A program made the position numbers and the translations under genes. A DNA stretch of 44,354 nt from Ignavibacteria bacterium (GTDB lineage Bacteria; Bacteroidota; Ignavibacteria; Ignavibacteriales; Ignavibacteriaceae), in the NCBI GenBank assembly GCA_021286645.1, contig JAJTBZ010000012.1, positions 1-44,354 on the forward strand. Direction: 5' to 3'. This document shows positions 1,676 to 39,578 of this stretch, one piece after another. Numbering within the stretch: position 1 is the stretch's first letter; every line of letters starts with the position of its first letter. Under the pieces are notes generated by a model. That model saw only the letters and a program-made list of their open reading frames with translations, ran no database searches and was not told the DNA's origin.

Positions 1676-3085
1676 ATGAACGCAGCTATGGCACTAAATA
1701 TTACTACACCTACTGAAGCCTGGTCTGAGTGCTTAAAATTAATAAAAGAACACGTTACACCGTACACATTTAACACGTGGTTCAGCCCCCTGAAGGCTGT
1801 TTCTTTAGAGTCTGAGAAGCTGACTATTGAATTACCCAATTCATATTTTTATGAGTGGATAGATCACCGCTATAATAACCTTTTGAATAAGAGTATTAAA
1901 AAGGTATTGGGGGAAGAAGCTATTCTGGCTTATAAGTACGAAGATCCGCAGTCTATAGAACGCCGCGAGGCAGAAGAACGAGCCGAGTTACAGGTTGAAT
2001 TGAAAAAACCGATGACAACTCTAATCGTGCCTGTTCCAGAAGTTCAAAAACATGAATCGAATCTAAAACCATCTTTCACGTTCGATAATTTTATAAAAGG
2101 AAGCTGCAATCAGCTGGCTAATGCGGCCGCCTTCGCTATTTCAGCCTCACCGGGTACCACTTCGTTCAACCCGTTCTTCATCTATGGAGGCGTTGGACTG
2201 GGGAAAACCCACCTTGCTATGGCAGTTGGTAACAGGGTTCAGGAATTACACCCTAATAAAAAAGTCATTTATCTATCGCTGGATAATTTCTTTATCCAAT
2301 ATGTTGAAGCAATTAAGGAAAACAGACAACAGGAGTTTTCCAGCTATTATCAAACAATAGATGTTCTTATTCTTGATGATATACAGTTCTTTATTGGTAA
2401 AGAGAAAACACAGGAGCTGTTTTTTCATATTTTTAATTCCCTTCATCAGAATAACAAACAGATTATACTTACCAGTGATAAACCACCAAAGGAGCTTCGC
2501 GGCCTCGATGAACGCCTTATCTCAAGGTTTAACTGGGGATTAACCGTAGATATTCAACCGCCTGACTTTGAAACCCGTCTGGCGATTCTGAATAAAAAAG
2601 CTGATGAATATAATTTGCAACTTTCTGATGAGATATTGGAATATATTGCAATGAACGTTACATCGAATATACGTGAACTTGAAGGCTGCCTGATACGATT
2701 ATTAGCTAACGTAACTATAACATCACGCGAAATCGATATTAACCTGGCAAAGGAATCTGTTCAGGAAATCTCTACAACGAAAAGAAATAACATTACAACA
2801 GATGCTATTTCGAAAATTGTAAGTGATTATATGAAGGTGGATGAGAATAAACTTAGGGATAAAACCCGTAAACAGGAGATTGTACTTGCGCGGCAGATGG
2901 CAATGTACCTTACAAAGGAATTAACAAAATCTTCCTTAAAGAACATCGGCCTCTATTTTGGAGGCAGGGATCACACTACCGTAATCCATGCCTGTGAAAC
3001 AATTCAAAACCTTAGCCAGAATGACACGAATTTTAAGGAAACTTTGCAGAACGTGCGAACGAAAATTCAGTTAGCATGCTCCTAG
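1676..3085 (+). CDS. dnaA: Chromosomal replication initiator protein DnaA
   Basis: A full-length 469-residue DnaA, which opens the origin and loads the helicase. Domain I spans about residues 8-85 (SECLKLI then the FNTWFSPL motif), a charged linker follows, and the AAA+ domain III runs from about 130 to 345, with Walker A GGVGLGKT at 171-178, Walker B LILDDIQ near 231-237 and an arginine-finger region RLISRF near 280. Domain IV carries the DNA-binding signature GGRDHTTVIHAC at 429-440. The start chosen is the first ATG (1676); the ATG at 1688, giving MALNITT, is an equally good alternative. DnaA-like boxes upstream suggest autoregulation. Its stop codon lies inside a CCTAGG shared with the convergent U32 peptidase gene. 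The neighbour is not dnaN, as in many genomes of this branch. Confidence 0.98.
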   Translation: MNAAMALNITTPTEAWSECLKLIKEHVTPYTFNTWFSPLKAVSLESEKLTIELPNSYFYEWIDHRYNNLLNKSIKKVLGEEAILAYKYEDPQSIERREAEERAELQVELKKPMTTLIVPVPEVQKHESNLKPSFTFDNFIKGSCNQLANAAAFAISASPGTTSFNPFFIYGGVGLGKTHLAMAVGNRVQELHPNKKVIYLSLDNFFIQYVEAIKENRQQEFSSYYQTIDVLILDDIQFFIGKEKTQELFFHIFNSLHQNNKQIILTSDKPPKELRGLDERLISRFNWGLTVDIQPPDFETRLAILNKKADEYNLQLSDEILEYIAMNVTSNIRELEGCLIRLLANVTITSREIDINLAKESVQEISTTKRNNITTDAISKIVSDYMKVDENKLRDKTRKQEIVLARQMAMYLTKELTKSSLKNIGLYFGGRDHTTVIHACETIQNLSQNDTNFKETLQNVRTKIQLACS

Positions 3086-4314
3086 GCATACTCCTGAAAA
3101 TCCTCCCGATCTACAATTTTATATACTTTATCACCCTGTCTCACTTTTGTGAGACAGGGAAAAGTAATCAGGTCCCCTTTTTCCGAAGCATTTTTCCCGT
3201 CAACGTCATTAACCATCAGTTCTGCCGGTTCCACTTCCACCACGCCAGTTGTCTTACCCATAATTAAGATTTTTTCGCCAATACTAATACCCCCTGCTGA
3301 AAGGCGAATATGGGCAATTTGTTTTTTATCAAAATAATTAAGCACCACACCGATGAATTCTTTTCGTACCGGGGAAATATTCCCCTCATGCTCCGTAAAC
3401 TCTTTACTGCCGGGACGATTAAAATAAAATCCTGTGCTAAACCCTCTGTTATAAACATGTTCTAAATCAGTTTGGAGCATGCTCCGGAATTCTTCTGAAA
3501 AATGCCCGGCAAAATATGCATCAATTGCACGCCTGTAAACCGATGTTACCTTCGCTGCATACTCCGGACTTCGCTTCCGGCCTTCAATTTTAAAGGCATC
3601 TATTCCGGCTTCGATAAGCTGCTCAACGAAAGAAAGGGTATTTAAGTCCTTAGCTGACATAACATAATCCTTTCCAATTAAAAGACTTACATCAGCACGG
3701 CGATCATATATTTCGTATTCTCGTCTACACGATTGCAGGCAGTCTCCACGGTTAGCAGAACGCCCAAACATTTCATGGCTCATAAAACAGCGACCGGAAA
3801 CTGCCACACACATTGCTCCGTGTACAAAAGCTTCGATCTCTATATCAGTATTCTTCCGAATTTGCTTAATTTGGCTCAATGTGCACTCTCTGGCGGTAAC
3901 AATACGGCTTGCTCCCATCTGTTTATACTGTTCCGCGGCGAGTGAATTGCTAATGGAGGCTTGTGTTGAGATACAGAAACTAAGTCCTATTTTTTTACAT
4001 AAAGCAATAACGGCTAAGTCCCAGCAAACTATGAGGTTAACCCCTGCTTCGGCTGCCCGGAGCAAGACGATTTCGATGCGCTGAAGCTCATGCTCATAGA
4101 TAATTACATTCACCACGAGATGTGTTTTTACACCGTGCTCCGAACAATACGCTACTATCTCCGGGAGATCTTCGACAGTAAAGTTTTCTGCCTGGGCACG
4201 CATGTTAAAATCTTCAAGGCCAAAATAGATTGCATCTGCTCCGTTTTGAATGACCGTGCGGAGCATTGTCCAATTTCCCGCGGGAGCAGCTAGTTCAGGT
4301 TTTTTACGGAGCAT
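3082..4314 (-). CDS. U32 family peptidase / Fe-S tRNA- or rRNA-hydroxylation-type protein
   Basis: A 410-residue protein of the peptidase U32 family (YegQ/RlhA/TrhP-like). The N-terminus KKPELAAPAGN and the segment around GADAIYFG are typical of the TIM-barrel part, and the U32 signature region around VHGAMCVAVSGRCFMS is at about 164-179. Cys169, Cys176, Cys192 and Cys196 are candidates for Fe-S ligation, as characterised U32 proteins use conserved cysteines for a [4Fe-4S] cluster. Members are described as collagenase-like proteases, but several act in RNA hydroxylation or ubiquinone synthesis, so a proteolytic role should not be assumed. The gene is last in a minus-strand unit, starting 2 bp after the PduT-like gene, which suggests co-expression. 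Its TAG stop overlaps the dnaA stop by 2 bp within a CCTAGG palindrome. Confidence 0.88.
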   Translation of the reverse strand: MLRKKPELAAPAGNWTMLRTVIQNGADAIYFGLEDFNMRAQAENFTVEDLPEIVAYCSEHGVKTHLVVNVIIYEHELQRIEIVLLRAAEAGVNLIVCWDLAVIALCKKIGLSFCISTQASISNSLAAEQYKQMGASRIVTARECTLSQIKQIRKNTDIEIEAFVHGAMCVAVSGRCFMSHEMFGRSANRGDCLQSCRREYEIYDRRADVSLLIGKDYVMSAKDLNTLSFVEQLIEAGIDAFKIEGRKRSPEYAAKVTSVYRRAIDAYFAGHFSEEFRSMLQTDLEHVYNRGFSTGFYFNRPGSKEFTEHEGNISPVRKEFIGVVLNYFDKKQIAHIRLSAGGISIGEKILIMGKTTGVVEVEPAELMVNDVDGKNASEKGDLITFPCLTKVRQGDKVYKIVDREDFQEYA

Positions 4315-4316
4315 GC

Positions 4317-4871
4317 TTATATCATCTCATTCAATAATTCGGGCCTTGGGGAGGCAATTACTACTTTATTAACCAATAAACCTTTTTCTGCAATCATGTG
4401 TGCTCCGGCTTCAATTGCAGCTGTTACAGCAGCAACCTCGCCCGTCATAGTGGCGAAAGCTTTACCGCCTAACGCCATTGCCAACCGTACTTCAATCAAC
4501 TGAACATTTGCAGCTTTAACAGCCGCGTCTGCTCCCTCAATAAGGGCGGAAACAGAAAATGATTCCAAAATTCCGAGACTTTCGAGTTGAGACACCTGAG
4601 AATGCCCCGCTAAAGCGGGAAAAATATCACGGTGAACATTGGGGATTACAAAACTATCAATGACACCATACCCAATTTGCTCAGCAGCGTTTTCCACCGC
4701 GGTTCTTACCGCTGCTACATCTCCACCAATAAGTACCATATATTTTCCGGAGCAAATTGTTCTACTGATTATTAATTCCACCTCTGAAGTCTTCAGCATA
4801 ATATCCGCTGCTAACATCCCGGATGCTATACTGGTTAATTCTATCAATCCAATTGAATTCATCTCTATCAT
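4317..4871 (-). CDS. pduT: PduT-like tandem BMC-domain shell protein with Fe-S cysteine
   Basis: A 184-residue protein, the same length as Salmonella PduT, made of two bacterial microcompartment (BMC) domains (about residues 5-90 and 98-182). Domain 1 begins SIGLIELTSIASGM; domain 2 begins LGILESFSVSALIEG. Each has the typical BMC core (VLIGGDVAAV near 46-55; ATMTGEVAAV in domain 2). Cys40, in the ISRTICSGKY loop, matches the PduT pore cysteine that binds a [4Fe-4S] cluster at the trimer axis in known structures. The family role is to carry electrons across a microcompartment shell or host a redox enzyme at its face. It lies 5 bp after the PduS-like gene, its usual partner. No other shell protein or signature enzyme occurs in the window. 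The start could also be the ATG at 4862, three codons in. Confidence 0.93.
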   Translation of the reverse strand: MIEMNSIGLIELTSIASGMLAADIMLKTSEVELIISRTICSGKYMVLIGGDVAAVRTAVENAAEQIGYGVIDSFVIPNVHRDIFPALAGHSQVSQLESLGILESFSVSALIEGADAAVKAANVQLIEVRLAMALGGKAFATMTGEVAAVTAAIEAGAHMIAEKGLLVNKVVIASPRPELLNEMI

Positions 4872-4876
4872 TTTAC

Positions 4877-6190
4877 TTACCTGCTGATTTTAATATAATC
4901 TTCTGCTATATGTGTTACCTTACCGTCAATAGATGAGTGGATGTAACTACCCAACTTACCCTCAGCCGGCTTGGCAATAAGCGTTCCTTCCTTTACACTA
5001 TCCCCCATCGATACAATTGGCAGTGCCTTATCACCAACATGCTGCTTTAACATTATTTTAACCGATTGCACTTCCGGCATGGCTTCTAGATATGGAGCGT
5101 GTTTTTCATAGTTTTCCACTTGTAACCGGTGGCGCAACTGGCGTAGTGGAACTCTGCGGCCCTCTTTTATCGGATGCACTTTTACCGGTTTTTCCTGTTT
5201 ATACTTGAAATTTGCAGATTTCATTTCCTGTTTAGAATTATCACAAGCTTCCTTGGGGTATAAATCTTCAGGACAGGAATACAGGGTACATAACCCACAA
5301 GCGCAGCATAGCTCAGCAAACTGATTCCATACAGCCTTACCACCAGTTGTAAAACCAAGTGAGCGCATAACTTTATGTGGTTGTACATCATACCCTAACA
5401 GATACCGCGGACACATTTCTGTGCAATAACTACACTGATCGCAGGCTGATTTGCCAATCTTCAATTTATTGTGTGCAGATCGGTTTTTTCGTCCTACTAA
5501 ATAATGGTCTTTAGGAAGAACTATTAACCCGGAAGTGGTTTTTGTTACCACTTCATCCAAATCGAATGTCAATGAACCCATCATCAAGCCGCCGATAAAG
5601 ATTCCAAAGTCATTTACCGTGGTGCCCCCGGCAAATTCTATCAATTCCCGAAAAGTAGTACCTACCGGAACGAAAAACGAAGAAGCCTTTTTTACAGCGC
5701 CGGCTACACATACAAATTTTCTGGTTACCGCACTGCCCCGGGCTGCCTGATATATATTATAAAATGTTTCAACATTATTAACCACACAGCCTACATTCAA
5801 AGGGATACCGGCAGGAGGGATAAGTCGGCCCGTTGCAAGATAAACCAGTTCATACTCGTCTCCCGCCGGGTAGAAATCACCGAGAATAACCATCTCGATA
5901 CCGGTGCCAGGCAGATATTTTTCGAGGGCTTCAATAGCCTGTTTATTCTTTGCCTTAACCCCCAGGTAACCTTTTTGAGCCCCTGTAGCGTCCATAACCA
6001 ATTTCATCCCGCCAACAACTTCCGCCGGGAAATGCAACATTAATTCGAAATCTTTATGAATTAGTGGTTCACACTCTGCACCATTAGCTATTATAAATTC
6101 AACTTTTGCCTGGGCTTTAACATGTGCAGGGAAACCGCCACCTCCGGCACCCACAATTCCAGCGGCTTGTATTTTATCAATTAGACTCAT
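4877..6190 (-). CDS. pduS: PduS-like RnfC-family Fe-S flavoprotein oxidoreductase
   Basis: A 437-residue protein resembling PduS and the RnfC/NuoF-like SLBB family. The N-terminal part has the glycine-rich GIVGAGGGGFPAH (11-23) and ANGAECEPL (35-43) motifs that bind FMN/NADH in this fold. An SLBB-type region follows (about 160-220), then two [4Fe-4S] motifs: Cys250/253/256/260 and Cys295/298/301/306. A C-terminal beta domain follows, about 360-437. Salmonella PduS is a cobalamin reductase that partners PduT in the 1,2-propanediol microcompartment; related proteins may simply shuttle electrons from NADH. Gene order PduS-PduT with a 5-bp gap supports a functional pair. No B12-dependent diol dehydratase or aldehyde dehydrogenase is present here, so substrate and pathway are unknown. 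The upstream gap (6191-6322) should contain its promoter. Confidence 0.9.
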   Translation of the reverse strand: MSLIDKIQAAGIVGAGGGGFPAHVKAQAKVEFIIANGAECEPLIHKDFELMLHFPAEVVGGMKLVMDATGAQKGYLGVKAKNKQAIEALEKYLPGTGIEMVILGDFYPAGDEYELVYLATGRLIPPAGIPLNVGCVVNNVETFYNIYQAARGSAVTRKFVCVAGAVKKASSFFVPVGTTFRELIEFAGGTTVNDFGIFIGGLMMGSLTFDLDEVVTKTTSGLIVLPKDHYLVGRKNRSAHNKLKIGKSACDQCSYCTEMCPRYLLGYDVQPHKVMRSLGFTTGGKAVWNQFAELCCACGLCTLYSCPEDLYPKEACDNSKQEMKSANFKYKQEKPVKVHPIKEGRRVPLRQLRHRLQVENYEKHAPYLEAMPEVQSVKIMLKQHVGDKALPIVSMGDSVKEGTLIAKPAEGKLGSYIHSSIDGKVTHIAEDYIKISR

Positions 6191-6314: not shown

Positions 6315-6346
6315 AAATAACAAAGGCTGCCGGTTGGGGCAGCCTT
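6315..6346 (-). terminator. Rho-independent terminator of the S46 peptidase gene
   Basis: Arms AAGGCTGCC (6323-6331) and GGCAGCCTT (6338-6346) form a perfect 9-bp stem with a 6-nt loop. Read on the minus strand it is followed by TGTTATTTT, a T-rich tail, and lies about 27 bp past the S46 peptidase stop. It should separate that gene from the PduS/PduT/U32 unit downstream. Confidence 0.75.
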
Positions 6347-35362: not shown

Positions 35363-37078
35363 CTAGCTTTTCCTGCTATGGAAGTGAGTATGCAGAACTT
35401 CATGGCTAACATGGCTGCCAGGTTCAACAAAATACTCCTTATACAGGGTTTTAATTGATTCGTTCTCATATGAACGACGTTTTACCATCTTTTTGTCGAT
35501 TTCGTAGAGCGCGCGCATACGTTGAACGACTTTATCGGTCTTCTGGTGAATTGGCTGCCCACCGCCGTTAATACAGCCGCCCGGACAAGCCATTACTTCG
35601 ATAAAATGATATTTGGAATTTCCACTCCGAAGATCATCGAGAATCTGGCGAATATTGCCAATGCCATTAACAACAGCAACATTTACATCCAATTCACCAA
35701 TCTTAATAGTGGTTTCTTTTACTCCCTCGAGACCACGGATAGCGTTTAGCTCCATATTTTCCAGATGCTCACCGGTAAGAGTATGATAAGCATTACGAAG
35801 AGCAGCTTCCATTACGCCGCCTGAAGTACCAAAAATTGCCGCAGCACCGGTTGATTCGCCAAGCGGGTTATCAAATTCGCTGTCATTCAGATCAGCAAAG
35901 TCAATTCCGGCAACTTCAAAGAAGCGAACCAATTCACGGGTTGTCAATACTGCATCAACATCCTGTAATTTGTGCTCATTCAGTTCCGGACGAGAAGCTT
36001 CAAACTTCTTCACAGTACATGGCATTACCGAAACGACGAACACATCTTTCGGACTGATACCTAATTTTTTAGCATAGTATGTTTTTGCAATAGCACCTTC
36101 CATTTCATGGGGTGATTTACAAGAAGATACATATTGTAATAAATCAGGATAATTATGTTCAATGAACTTAACCCAACCCGGGCAGCAACTGGTGAACATT
36201 GGCAACGGTTCATTATTCGAAATTCGCTGAATAAGTTCATTTGCTTCTTCCCAAATGGTAAGATCGGCTGCAAAGTTGGTGTCAAATACTTTCTTAAAGC
36301 CTAGGCGGCGAAGACCGGTGACTAATTTACCGGTCACATCGGTACCCAAAGGTAAATTATATTCTTCGCCTAAAGTTGCCCGAACTGCAGGAGCGATCTG
36401 GGCAATAGTATATTTGTTTCTTGACTCGAGTGCAGAAGAAACTTCTTTCATGGCACTACGCTCGCGTAATGCGGCAGTAGGACATACTAAAATACACTGA
36501 CCGCACAAGATACAATCTGAAACGTTGATACCTTTGTTATAGGGTGTAGTAACGTTGCTCTGGAAACCTCTATTGGCGAAATCGATTGCACCAATCTTCT
36601 GAACTTCATTACATACGCGGACGCAACGACCACACAGAATACATTTTGCCGGATCGCGTTCCAATGAAGGGCTGGAAATATCAACGGCATGATCTTTTGT
36701 CTCACCGTGGAAACGATGTTCGCGAAGGCTGTAACGTTCTGCCAAATTTTGCAATTCGCAATTTTTATTGCGAACACATATCAGACAGTCCTGAGGGTGG
36801 TTTTCTACTAATAATTCAACTATTGTTTTACGGGCACGGCGTACACGAGCTGAATTGGTTTCAACAGTCATTCCTTCTGAAACCGGGTAGGCACATGCAG
36901 GAACAAGATTTCTAAAACCTTCAACTTCAACAGAACAAATACGGCATGCACCGCTGGGAATCAAATCCTTAATGTGGCAAAGAGTAGGTATGCTGATACC
37001 AACTGACTTTGCAGCATCAAGAATCGTCATATTATCTTCAGCTTTTACTTTAATCTTATTTATTGATAATTCTACCAT
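35363..37078 (-). CDS. hydA: [FeFe] hydrogenase catalytic subunit of a trimeric (HydABC-type) enzyme
   Basis: A 571-residue catalytic subunit. In order: N-terminal [2Fe-2S] domain (Cys34, 45, 48, 62), a His/Cys-rich cluster site (HPQDCLICVRNKNC near 94-107), two [4Fe-4S] motifs (CILCGRCVRVC and CILCGQCILVCP), then the H-cluster domain with L1 TSCCPGWV near 294, L2 MPCTVKK near 351 and L3 MACPGGC near 495, and the small C-terminal domain (YKEYFVEPGSH). This is the composition of the electron-bifurcating group A3 enzymes, which use NADH and reduced ferredoxin to make H2 or the reverse. It follows hydB by 23 bp (SD AAAAGG). Maturation genes hydEFG are not in the window. Group assignment is by domain layout and partners. 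Confidence 0.95.
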   Translation of the reverse strand: MVELSINKIKVKAEDNMTILDAAKSVGISIPTLCHIKDLIPSGACRICSVEVEGFRNLVPACAYPVSEGMTVETNSARVRRARKTIVELLVENHPQDCLICVRNKNCELQNLAERYSLREHRFHGETKDHAVDISSPSLERDPAKCILCGRCVRVCNEVQKIGAIDFANRGFQSNVTTPYNKGINVSDCILCGQCILVCPTAALRERSAMKEVSSALESRNKYTIAQIAPAVRATLGEEYNLPLGTDVTGKLVTGLRRLGFKKVFDTNFAADLTIWEEANELIQRISNNEPLPMFTSCCPGWVKFIEHNYPDLLQYVSSCKSPHEMEGAIAKTYYAKKLGISPKDVFVVSVMPCTVKKFEASRPELNEHKLQDVDAVLTTRELVRFFEVAGIDFADLNDSEFDNPLGESTGAAAIFGTSGGVMEAALRNAYHTLTGEHLENMELNAIRGLEGVKETTIKIGELDVNVAVVNGIGNIRQILDDLRSGNSKYHFIEVMACPGGCINGGGQPIHQKTDKVVQRMRALYEIDKKMVKRRSYENESIKTLYKEYFVEPGSHVSHEVLHTHFHSRKS

Positions 37079-37101
37079 TTTTGTTACCTTTTCATCAAAA
37101 A

Positions 37102-39087
37102 TTAATTGATATTGACAGCATCAAAACGGCAGGCTTCAAAGCACAATCCGCATTTCACGCACTTGTCTTCTATTATATAATGAGCATGTCCCTTTTCACC
37201 AAGAATGGCTTCGGAGGAGCACTTGCGCACGCATACACCGCAACCGGTGCATTTGCTGTTATCAACCGTATAGATGAGCAACTCTTTACAAACGCCTGAA
37301 GAGCATTTTCTTTCGTACAAATGTTCTTCATATTCATGACGGAAATACTGCAAACCGGAAAGTACCGGGTTCGGAGCTGACTGACCAAGACCGCACAAAG
37401 AAGTATCTTTAATTACACCGGCAAGTTTCTCCAATGCAATCATTCCTTTGAAACGCTGTAACTGGTCGGTTTTTTCTTTCGTAAAACGGTAACTGGTAGG
37501 TATCCGTTCAATTATTTCCAACATTCTCTTGGTACCTTCACGGCACGGAACGCACTTACCGCAAGATTCATTCTGAATGAAGGTAAGGAAGTATTTCGCG
37601 ATATCAACCATACAGGTTTCTTCGTCCATAACAACGAATCCGCCCGAACCCATCATCGCGCCTACTTCTTTTAATGATTCATAATCTACTTTTGTATTAA
37701 TTACGCTTTCAGGTAAACAACCGCCCGAGGGGCCGCCAATCTGAACAGCTTTAAATTTCTTTCCATTGGGGATACCACCACCGATTTCAAAAACTACTTC
37801 ACCAAGGCTTATGCCCATAGGAACTTCTACTAAACCGGTGTTGCGGATCTTTCCGCTAAGCGCGAAAACTTTTGTTCCCTTGCTCTTTTCGGTTCCGATT
37901 TTATTGAACCAGTCAGCACCTTTACCAATGATCTCGGCTACGTTTCCAAAAGTTTCAACATTGTTGATAACAGTTGGTTTTCCCCACAAACCTGCAATCG
38001 ACGGGAATGGAGGACGTGGACGCGGCATTCCGCGTTTGCCTTCGATAGATGCAATAAGAGCAGTTTCTTCACCGCAAACAAACGCACCGGCGCCTTTTTT
38101 AATCTTTAAGTGGAAACTGAAATCGCTGCCGAGAATATTATCACCCAGGAAACCATATTCTTTACACTGGGCAATTGTTTTCTCAAGACGTTCAATTGCC
38201 AGGGGGTATTCCGCACGGCAATAAATATAACCATCGGTAGCGCCAATAGCATAACCGCCTATTAACATACCTTCAATTAAACGGAAAGGATCACTTTCAA
38301 GAACCGAACGATCCATGAATGCACCCGGATCACCTTCATCGGCATTACAGATAATATATTTCTGTACTGATTTTTGTTTGAAAGCCAATTCCCATTTTTT
38401 TCCGGTCGGGAAACCTGCACCACCACGGCCACGTAAACCGGAAAGATTAACTTCCGCGATTACATCTTCGGGTTTCATTAAACGGAGTACCTTATCAAAA
38501 GCCCTAAATCCGCCATTGGCCAGATAAGCATCAAGAGAAACAGGATTAATAATACCGCAATTTTGCAGCACTATTTTCATTTGATGACGGAAAAATGGAT
38601 CGTTATGAATTAACTGAATATCTTTGGAATGCGGGGCATGTGCACCTAAAAGTTTTTCAGTGAAGACATCTTTTTCAACGATGGTCTTTTGAATAAATTT
38701 AGAAACAATCTTAGGAGTGATTTCACAATAGGAAACGCGGGCTTCACCAGGCAGTTTAATATCAACAATTACTTCCTTAGCGCAGTACCCGACACAGCCG
38801 GTAGCTTCAATAACGGCTTCAATGTTTAGTTTATGCAATTCTGCACGGATTGCATCTTCAACTTTCTGAGCACCAGCTGCCAAACCGCATGTACCCATAC
38901 CAACAAAGATAATGGGCAATTCATGCTCTTCATAGCGCAGCTTTCTGTTTAATTGCTGAATTTTTTCGGCGCAGTTTTTATCATGATGGCAAAGGGGACC
39001 TTCGGATTTACAGCGAACAAATAAATCACACGGTTTGGTATTAGAGTGCCAACATTCATCACAACATTTATCGATTAAACGGTTCAT
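37102..39087 (-). CDS. hydB: NuoF-like subunit of the bifurcating hydrogenase, HydB
   Basis: A 661-residue subunit carrying FMN and several clusters. In order: an N-terminal Cys-rich stretch (Cys8, 9, 12, 20, 26, 33, 39), a thioredoxin-like [2Fe-2S] domain (about 50-150), the NuoF core with FMN-binding GLRGRGGAGFPTGKKW near 217-232 and NADH-binding GAGAFVCGEETAL, a [4Fe-4S] motif SCGKCVPCREG near 522, and two C-terminal ferredoxin motifs (CTGCGVCVRKC and CVKCGLCFEAC). It is the NAD(H)-binding and bifurcation site in characterised HydABC. A GAGGAGGT ribosome-binding site (39091-39098) lies inside the hydC end; the two genes overlap by 4 bp. The first 40 residues are longer than in many HydB proteins. 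Confidence 0.95.
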   Translation of the reverse strand: MNRLIDKCCDECWHSNTKPCDLFVRCKSEGPLCHHDKNCAEKIQQLNRKLRYEEHELPIIFVGMGTCGLAAGAQKVEDAIRAELHKLNIEAVIEATGCVGYCAKEVIVDIKLPGEARVSYCEITPKIVSKFIQKTIVEKDVFTEKLLGAHAPHSKDIQLIHNDPFFRHQMKIVLQNCGIINPVSLDAYLANGGFRAFDKVLRLMKPEDVIAEVNLSGLRGRGGAGFPTGKKWELAFKQKSVQKYIICNADEGDPGAFMDRSVLESDPFRLIEGMLIGGYAIGATDGYIYCRAEYPLAIERLEKTIAQCKEYGFLGDNILGSDFSFHLKIKKGAGAFVCGEETALIASIEGKRGMPRPRPPFPSIAGLWGKPTVINNVETFGNVAEIIGKGADWFNKIGTEKSKGTKVFALSGKIRNTGLVEVPMGISLGEVVFEIGGGIPNGKKFKAVQIGGPSGGCLPESVINTKVDYESLKEVGAMMGSGGFVVMDEETCMVDIAKYFLTFIQNESCGKCVPCREGTKRMLEIIERIPTSYRFTKEKTDQLQRFKGMIALEKLAGVIKDTSLCGLGQSAPNPVLSGLQYFRHEYEEHLYERKCSSGVCKELLIYTVDNSKCTGCGVCVRKCSSEAILGEKGHAHYIIEDKCVKCGLCFEACRFDAVNIN

Positions 39088-39578
39088 GCGACCTCCTCTG
39101 TTACGTTTGCCGGCTGCACACCTTTAGCGGGTTTTGCCGCGTATTTTTTTATTATGGAAGGAATATCCTTAGTTGTTATTCTGCCATAATATTCATCGTT
39201 AACCGTAATAACCGGAGCAATACTGCAAGCACCAATGCAGTTCACTAATTCGATAGTAAATTTCTTATCTTTTGTTGTCTCACCGGCTTTAATATTTAAC
39301 GTGTTTTCCAAAGCAAAAAGCAAGTTAGCCGAGTTCTTAACGTGGCAGGCCGTTCCACGGCAAACACGTATAACGTTTTCACCTAAAGCGGAAAGTCTGA
39401 ATTGATTGTAAAATGTAGCCACGCCATACACTCTGCTTAACGGCAAGCCTACATAATCAGCCACATCTTTCAGGGCATCCTCCGGAAGATAGCCATATAT
39501 AGCTTGTACTTCCTGAAGTAAGGGAATCAAGGAACTTTTGTCATTCCTCGTGTACTGTTCAAAAATATGATTGTGCAT
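39084..39578 (-). CDS. hydC: NuoE-like subunit of the bifurcating hydrogenase, HydC
   Basis: A 164-residue thioredoxin-like [2Fe-2S] protein of the NuoE family. Ligands Cys73 and Cys78 (RVCRGTACH) and Cys114 and Cys118 (VNCIGACS) are in the usual spacing; the N-terminal helical region (LIPLLQEVQAIYGYLPEDALKDVADYVGLPLSRVYGVATFY) is typical. It passes electrons to HydB. The ATG is preceded by AGAGG. It is the first gene of the hydC-hydB-hydA operon, so the operon promoter lies in the long gap at 39579-39989. Confidence 0.95.
   Translation of the reverse strand: MHNHIFEQYTRNDKSSLIPLLQEVQAIYGYLPEDALKDVADYVGLPLSRVYGVATFYNQFRLSALGENVIRVCRGTACHVKNSANLLFALENTLNIKAGETTKDKKFTIELVNCIGACSIAPVITVNDEYYGRITTKDIPSIIKKYAAKPAKGVQPANVTEEVA

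Follow-up and report, generated by a model that had tools for sequence, protein, structure and literature searches.

What role two redox genes of a bacterial microcompartment (BMC) play at a place that holds neither a main shell gene nor an enzyme core is the question raised by a 44,354-nucleotide stretch of DNA from an Ignavibacteria bacterium (GenBank JAJTBZ010000012.1). This stretch, hereafter the window, is the entire contig C91 of a 3.72 Mb genome that is 99% complete. A pduS-like gene, a pduT-like gene and a gene of the U32 family follow one another there on the minus strand, with intergenic gaps of 5 bp and then 2 bp, as a sequence-only reading of the window had described, and all three open reading frames (ORFs) are intact. 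That reading left two roles for the PduS-PduT pair (PduST): a satellite of a shell encoded elsewhere, or an iron-sulfur (Fe-S) relay repurposed for the U32 protein. Our analysis points to the first of them. The PduST locus is probably a satellite of a genomically scattered metabolosome of the FRAG type, serving NADH-oxidising electron export from a putatively encapsulated dehydrogenase.

The detached PduS-PduT pair and its scattered shell

We confirmed the proposed PduS-like protein with two [4Fe-4S] motifs by domain search, which returned a Nuo51 FMN-binding domain (Complex1_51K, FMN/NADH), SLBB, a 4Fe-4S dicluster and a C-terminal RnfC barrel, and by its tetracysteine sets (C250/C253/C256/C260 and C295/C298/C301/C306), which are invariant across 11 divergent homologues. 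The protein thus has the domain set, both tetracysteine sets, the barrel and the adjoining pduT of a PduS. Among solved structures it is closest to RnfC, whose barrel domain sits at the C-terminus in PduS, and an NCBIfam scan matched no PduS model, with RnfC and PrdC scoring best, just under cut-off. The PduT-like protein contains two BMC domains in the domain search, and its alignment to the solved PduT chains 3pac and 3n79, as well as to 3nwg, runs end to end over residues 4-183. Cys40, the cysteine to which an Fe-S role had been ascribed, aligns with the CxGK-motif cysteine of the solved chains, and the motif (C-P/S/A-G-K) is present in 36/36 PduT homologues examined. Tandem BMC domains, a full-length match and the pore cysteine therefore agree with PduT, while the score against the NCBIfam PduT equivalog was 121 bits, below the cut-off of 250.

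PduS and PduT are adjacent in every relative with both genes on one contig. A scan of named genome contigs gave 80 loci with PduS 59-68% identical, where PduT stands beside PduS in 77/80 and the remaining three are contig ends. Since the adjacency recurs in both sets, the pairing is far beyond chance. One pseudogene-like case was seen among the relatives, as the PduS of G056 carries a stop.

The shell itself is encoded elsewhere. The BMC domain (PF00936) was also found twice on contig C13, in BMC-H proteins of 98 and 362 residues, and three EutN/CcmL (PF03319, BMC-P) genes lie on C64 (two) and C44 (one), so that hexamer, pentamer and tandem (PduT) shell proteins are encoded at four genomic places. 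This dispersal is not an assembly effect, because single-contig relatives (G002, G008 and G054) also keep the parts hundreds of kb apart: G008, for instance, carries in this order the U32 gene (0.86 Mb), PduST (1.56 Mb), the BMC-H pair (2.64 Mb), the third BMC-P gene (3.39 Mb) and the BMC-P pair (3.52 Mb). The contexts upp-relA-ruvX-[BMC-H pair]-YbbR-tmk, engB-deoB-[BMC-P pair]-rpoD and DUF3098-like-[BMC-P3]-dprA are each conserved in about 20/21 genomes.

The 362-residue BMC-H protein (L005 6530-7618, contig C13) has a long acidic C-terminal extension, whose length varies widely among relatives (open frames of about 190-480 residues). In 20/21 genomes (L136-L155) the BMC-P pair is directly preceded by the phosphopentomutase gene deoB, and in the window's genome this upstream side is lost to a contig end. 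The deoB position may hint at chemistry of pentose phosphates, or it may reflect no more than housekeeping synteny.

Co-occurrence was counted in 59 Ignavibacteriales genomes, with two or more dispersed BMC-P genes taken as a scattered shell. Such a shell is present in 45/59 genomes, and PduST occurs in 41/45 shell-positive versus 0/14 shell-negative genomes (Fisher p = 2e-10, a test that ignores kinship); all 41 genomes with PduST are shell-positive. Three other contigs carry the BMC-H and BMC-P genes and PduST is never seen without a shell, so that the proposed satellite of a shell encoded elsewhere was borne out. A full microcompartment operon with its own pduS and pduT copies does not adjoin the locus, and a search of the genome's contigs returned this PduS as the single close homologue. 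In at least two families the scattered system has been lost or has given way to a compact locus (G004, G027 and G046). The compact microcompartment loci L113 (G027) and L115 (G004), with a PduP-type dehydrogenase, replace the scattered system and contain a more distant PduS (43-47%).

Scattered genes and the lack of a compact operon might also be what a lost microcompartment leaves behind. Yet 36 to 41 homologues retain all catalytic and cluster cysteines, PduS keeps 60-68% identity throughout the order, the gene contexts are frozen, and the shell set (H, P and T) is complete, which makes a vestige the least credible of the explanations considered.

The same detached pair extends to a second phylum. 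The 80 named loci come from Ignavibacteria (Melioribacter, Stygiobacter and Ignavibacteriaceae), including the cultured Stygiobacter electus (L301), and from Acidobacteriota, mostly Bryobacterales and Solibacter-like metagenome-assembled genomes. BMC-H, BMC-P and either of the dehydrogenase types described below are absent from 80/80 of these loci. In 27/27 Acidobacteriota genomes tested, BMC-H genes are found elsewhere in the genome, so the satellite reading holds there too. Other contigs of these genomes carry a class II aldolase-BMC-H-BMC-P triplet locus and a BMC-H-dehydrogenase locus, with the dehydrogenase homologous at 43-49%. Being detached from both, PduST is a third, separately encoded piece of the Acidobacteriota compartment. 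On balance we lean towards regarding the scattered Ignavibacteriales compartment as a vertically inherited core-genome organelle whose shell genes, tailed dehydrogenase (described below) and stand-alone PduST export module each became fixed in housekeeping neighbourhoods, with the same PduST serving the Acidobacteriota compartment.

A SpoIIE/RsbU-type phosphatase gene lies directly upstream of pduS in 30/80 named loci, which are of Melioribacteraceae type (e.g. L077 3107-4342). It is recurrent in genomes of that type and could not be traced in the window's genome.

A candidate cargo dehydrogenase and proposed electron export

A search for PduP/EutE-type dehydrogenases identified, as a more distant member, an acetylating aldehyde dehydrogenase of 524 residues on contig C54, which passed NCBIfam TIGR02518 (acetylating acetaldehyde dehydrogenase) narrowly, with 621.9 bits against a cut-off of 620.1. 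The check that the sequence-only reading had proposed, for BMC-H/BMC-P genes and an aldehyde dehydrogenase elsewhere in the genome, thus gave both, on C13, C64 and C44 and on C54. The dehydrogenase ends in the tail NLTEDDVNKLIKSFKF, and a GxGISEEEIxKIIxEFK-like C-terminal tail was found in 20/20 orthologues from 20 genomes, preceded by a variable Pro/Lys/Gln-rich linker and foreign to the catalytic family. This layout resembles that of an encapsulation peptide, from which we infer that the dehydrogenase may be encapsulated. The tailed dehydrogenase occurs in 44/45 scattered-shell genomes versus 1/14 others; an apparent gap in G024 was closed by a C-terminal piece of the enzyme at a contig start.

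Other cargo candidates did not fit. Canonical PduP/EutE dehydrogenases were rejected because they are confined to four genomes (G004, G027, G046 and G056), each with a second, compact locus. A short-chain dehydrogenase-aldehyde dehydrogenase (SDR-ALDH) pair lying immediately upstream of PduS in G010, G026 and G035 was rejected as well, as the window's genome and many shell-positive relatives lack it. When a degenerate DNA pattern of the tail was searched in the 59 genomes for further cargo, the dehydrogenase alone recurred, and the remaining matches lay within unrelated proteins or out of frame. A class II aldolase gene lies near BMC-P3 in 15/21 relatives, and the Ignavibacteriales copies of this enzyme bear no tail. 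On contig C237 of G034, a 47-residue open frame about 660 bp past the dehydrogenase tail contains a second copy of this encapsulation-peptide-like tail (L257).

Homologous PduS oxidises NADH via FMN and Fe-S clusters and binds PduT, and the PduT cluster of the PDU system has a midpoint potential of +99 mV (PMC6325248). A role for the two proteins in electron transfer across the shell has been put forward (PMC6325248; Axen et al. 2014). On this basis, the tail would draw the dehydrogenase into the shell, where it would convert an aldehyde, probably acetaldehyde, into acyl-CoA and NADH. PduS, docked at the lumen side of PduT, would oxidise the NADH via FMN and its two [4Fe-4S] clusters, the [4Fe-4S] cluster in the PduT trimer pore would pass the electrons to a cytosolic acceptor, and NAD+ would thereby be regenerated inside the shell. 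Electron export from NADH is the simplest role, because the putative lumenal enzyme is a CoA-acylating dehydrogenase and no alcohol dehydrogenase was identified.

PduS has also been assigned another activity. Corrin reduction by the PduS of PDU was reported (PMC6325248), and given the sequence similarity to that protein, PduS could here reduce cobalamin for a B12-dependent enzyme while docked on PduT, as in the PDU proposal. Diol dehydratase and cobalamin adenosyltransferase are absent near the PduST loci by neighbour annotation, which did not extend to a whole-genome search for B12 enzymes, and we consider this role quite unlikely.

Several points weigh against a satellite that exports electrons. 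Four shell-positive genomes (G014, G015, G021 and G031) lack PduST, which makes the pair an accessory and not a requirement of the compartment. The genomes are related, so that the Fisher p-values overstate the evidence, and the presence tables with their set labels were compiled by hand. The likeness of the dehydrogenase tail to an encapsulation peptide is limited to its position, the linker and a heptad pattern, and in most orthologues the helical moment of the tail is high without being extreme. An aldehyde-producing signature enzyme was not identified, and no genome-wide scan for such enzymes was made. The roles given to the proteins here rest on sequence and on the biochemistry of homologues, and the electrons could flow inward. 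An inward flow from cytosol to lumen through the same satellite, for a reductive step or for enzyme activation, was proposed for PduS/PduT of glycyl-radical compartments (PMC6325248), and sequence cannot tell the direction. We hold it to be unlikely, though less so than the cobalamin reductase, given that neither a radical enzyme nor a reductase was identified as encapsulated cargo, that the sole candidate cargo makes NADH, and that the +99 mV of the PDU PduT cluster favours accepting electrons from NADH. Outward export thus remains our preferred direction.

If the export model is true, the FRAG class gains its first core enzyme and a redox exit. With a remote tailed dehydrogenase that follows the shell genes and a PduST relay never seen without them, a class of unassigned function now has a testable model, conversion of an aldehyde to acyl-CoA together with electron export, and its bearers include the cultured Stygiobacter electus. 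The distribution also shows that a compartment can stay intact across a whole order without an operon.

The U32 neighbour and other features of the window

The Pfam U32 match (2.7e-77) confirmed the described U32 protein with clustered cysteines, which are usual for the family; U32 proteins carry an Fe-S cluster. Its nearest NCBIfam model was TrhP, with 212.9 bits not reaching the cut-off of 534, and it was therefore filed only as a member of the U32 family; no sequence match was found among solved structures. The family's cluster and the tight same-strand spacing of 2 bp, similar in G001, G009, G016, G018, G025 and G034, speak for a PduS-PduT pair repurposed as electron source for this Fe-S hydroxylase-like protein outside any microcompartment. 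The distribution of the U32 gene speaks against it. U32 is present in 53/59 relatives independently of PduST (Fisher p = 0.66) and is unrelated to the shell, with 39/45 shell-positive and 14/14 shell-negative genomes carrying it (p = 0.32). It is found elsewhere in the genome in most relatives with PduST, and lies inside the locus in 4/80 named loci and outside it in the other 76. PduT, moreover, is a shell protein that never occurs without other shell genes in the Ignavibacteriales set. The repurposed relay, one of the two roles first offered, was accordingly not borne out and seems very improbable to us. U32 adjoins PduST in G000, G001, G009, G016, G018, G025 and probably also in G034, an arrangement local to part of one family. 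Of the PduS-PduT-U32 order whose recurrence had been put forward as a check, the PduS-PduT synteny recurred, whereas that with U32 is lacking in relatives. The U32 protein is probably an independent, RNA-modification-type enzyme outside the microcompartment system. A second, longer U32 protein is encoded on contig C98.

The features at the locus are listed in Table 1. The adjoining dnaA was rejected as a meaningful neighbour, as it is limited to the same genus, with 1/80 named loci, and was taken as a chance neighbour. The stem-loop comes from a consensus scan only, which found 7 such sites versus 3.1 expected in shuffles, and is consistent with pduS as the start of its own unit. An NADH-dependent [FeFe] hydrogenase of group A6, with subunits resembling NuoF and NuoE, is encoded by three genes further along the window (35363-39578, minus strand); this enzyme is a possible cytosolic sink for NADH.

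Table 1 Coordinates of the PduST locus and adjoining features in the window
Feature	Position	Strand	Basis or context
pduS-like flavin/Fe-S NADH oxidoreductase, 437 aa	4877..6190	(-)	ORF and domain search
pduT-like tandem BMC-domain shell protein, 184 aa, pore Fe-S Cys40 (CSGK motif)	4317..4871	(-)	ORF and domains
U32-family protein, 410 aa	3082..4314	(-)	ORF and domain search; neighbour
dnaA	1676..3085	(+)	Convergent to U32 gene, 4-bp overlap
Terminator-like stem-loop, 9 pairs	6323..6346	(-)	Between upstream S46-type peptidase gene and pduS

Comparison with known systems

TrhP/YegQ-type proteins are the nearest to the U32 neighbour by NCBIfam model, which differs from them in scoring far below the cut-off. 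The pair itself is like PduS-PduT of the PDU and GRM systems in domain order, cofactor motifs and adjacency. It differs in location: there it forms part of the main operon, here it stands by itself, with all other parts tens to hundreds of kb distant or on other contigs.

The Acidobacteriota loci are like the ACI (Acidobacteria) type, in that a tailed class II aldolase is encoded with BMC-H and a BMC-P triplet, and the dehydrogenase apart from them. ACI is placed mainly in subdivisions 4 and 6 by Sutter et al. 2021 (PMC8217296), whereas the Acidobacteriota genomes here are largely Bryobacterales or Solibacter-like. In Ignavibacteriales, unlike ACI, the main locus is split and the tail is on the dehydrogenase, while the nearby class II aldolase is untailed.

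The system belongs with the known FRAG class. The same paper describes FRAG as scattered shells with three BMC-P in Ignavibacteriae, of unknown function and with genes far from known enzymes (PMC8217296), and Melioribacter roseus was reported to have seven BMC-P genes over five loci (Axen et al. 2014). In agreement with FRAG, the shell genes of this genome lie at several places (C91, C13, C64 and C44), and the BMC-P triplet corresponds to the three PF03319 genes. An aldehyde dehydrogenase of an uncharacterised branch is given for FRAG (PMC8217296), and here the dehydrogenase that tracks the shell is the one on C54. PduS and PduT go unmentioned in the main text by Sutter et al., a statement that leaves its supplementary data aside, so that priority for the detached pair is not certain. 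To the FRAG class we add the detached PduST module and where it occurs, as well as a remotely encoded tailed dehydrogenase as candidate cargo.

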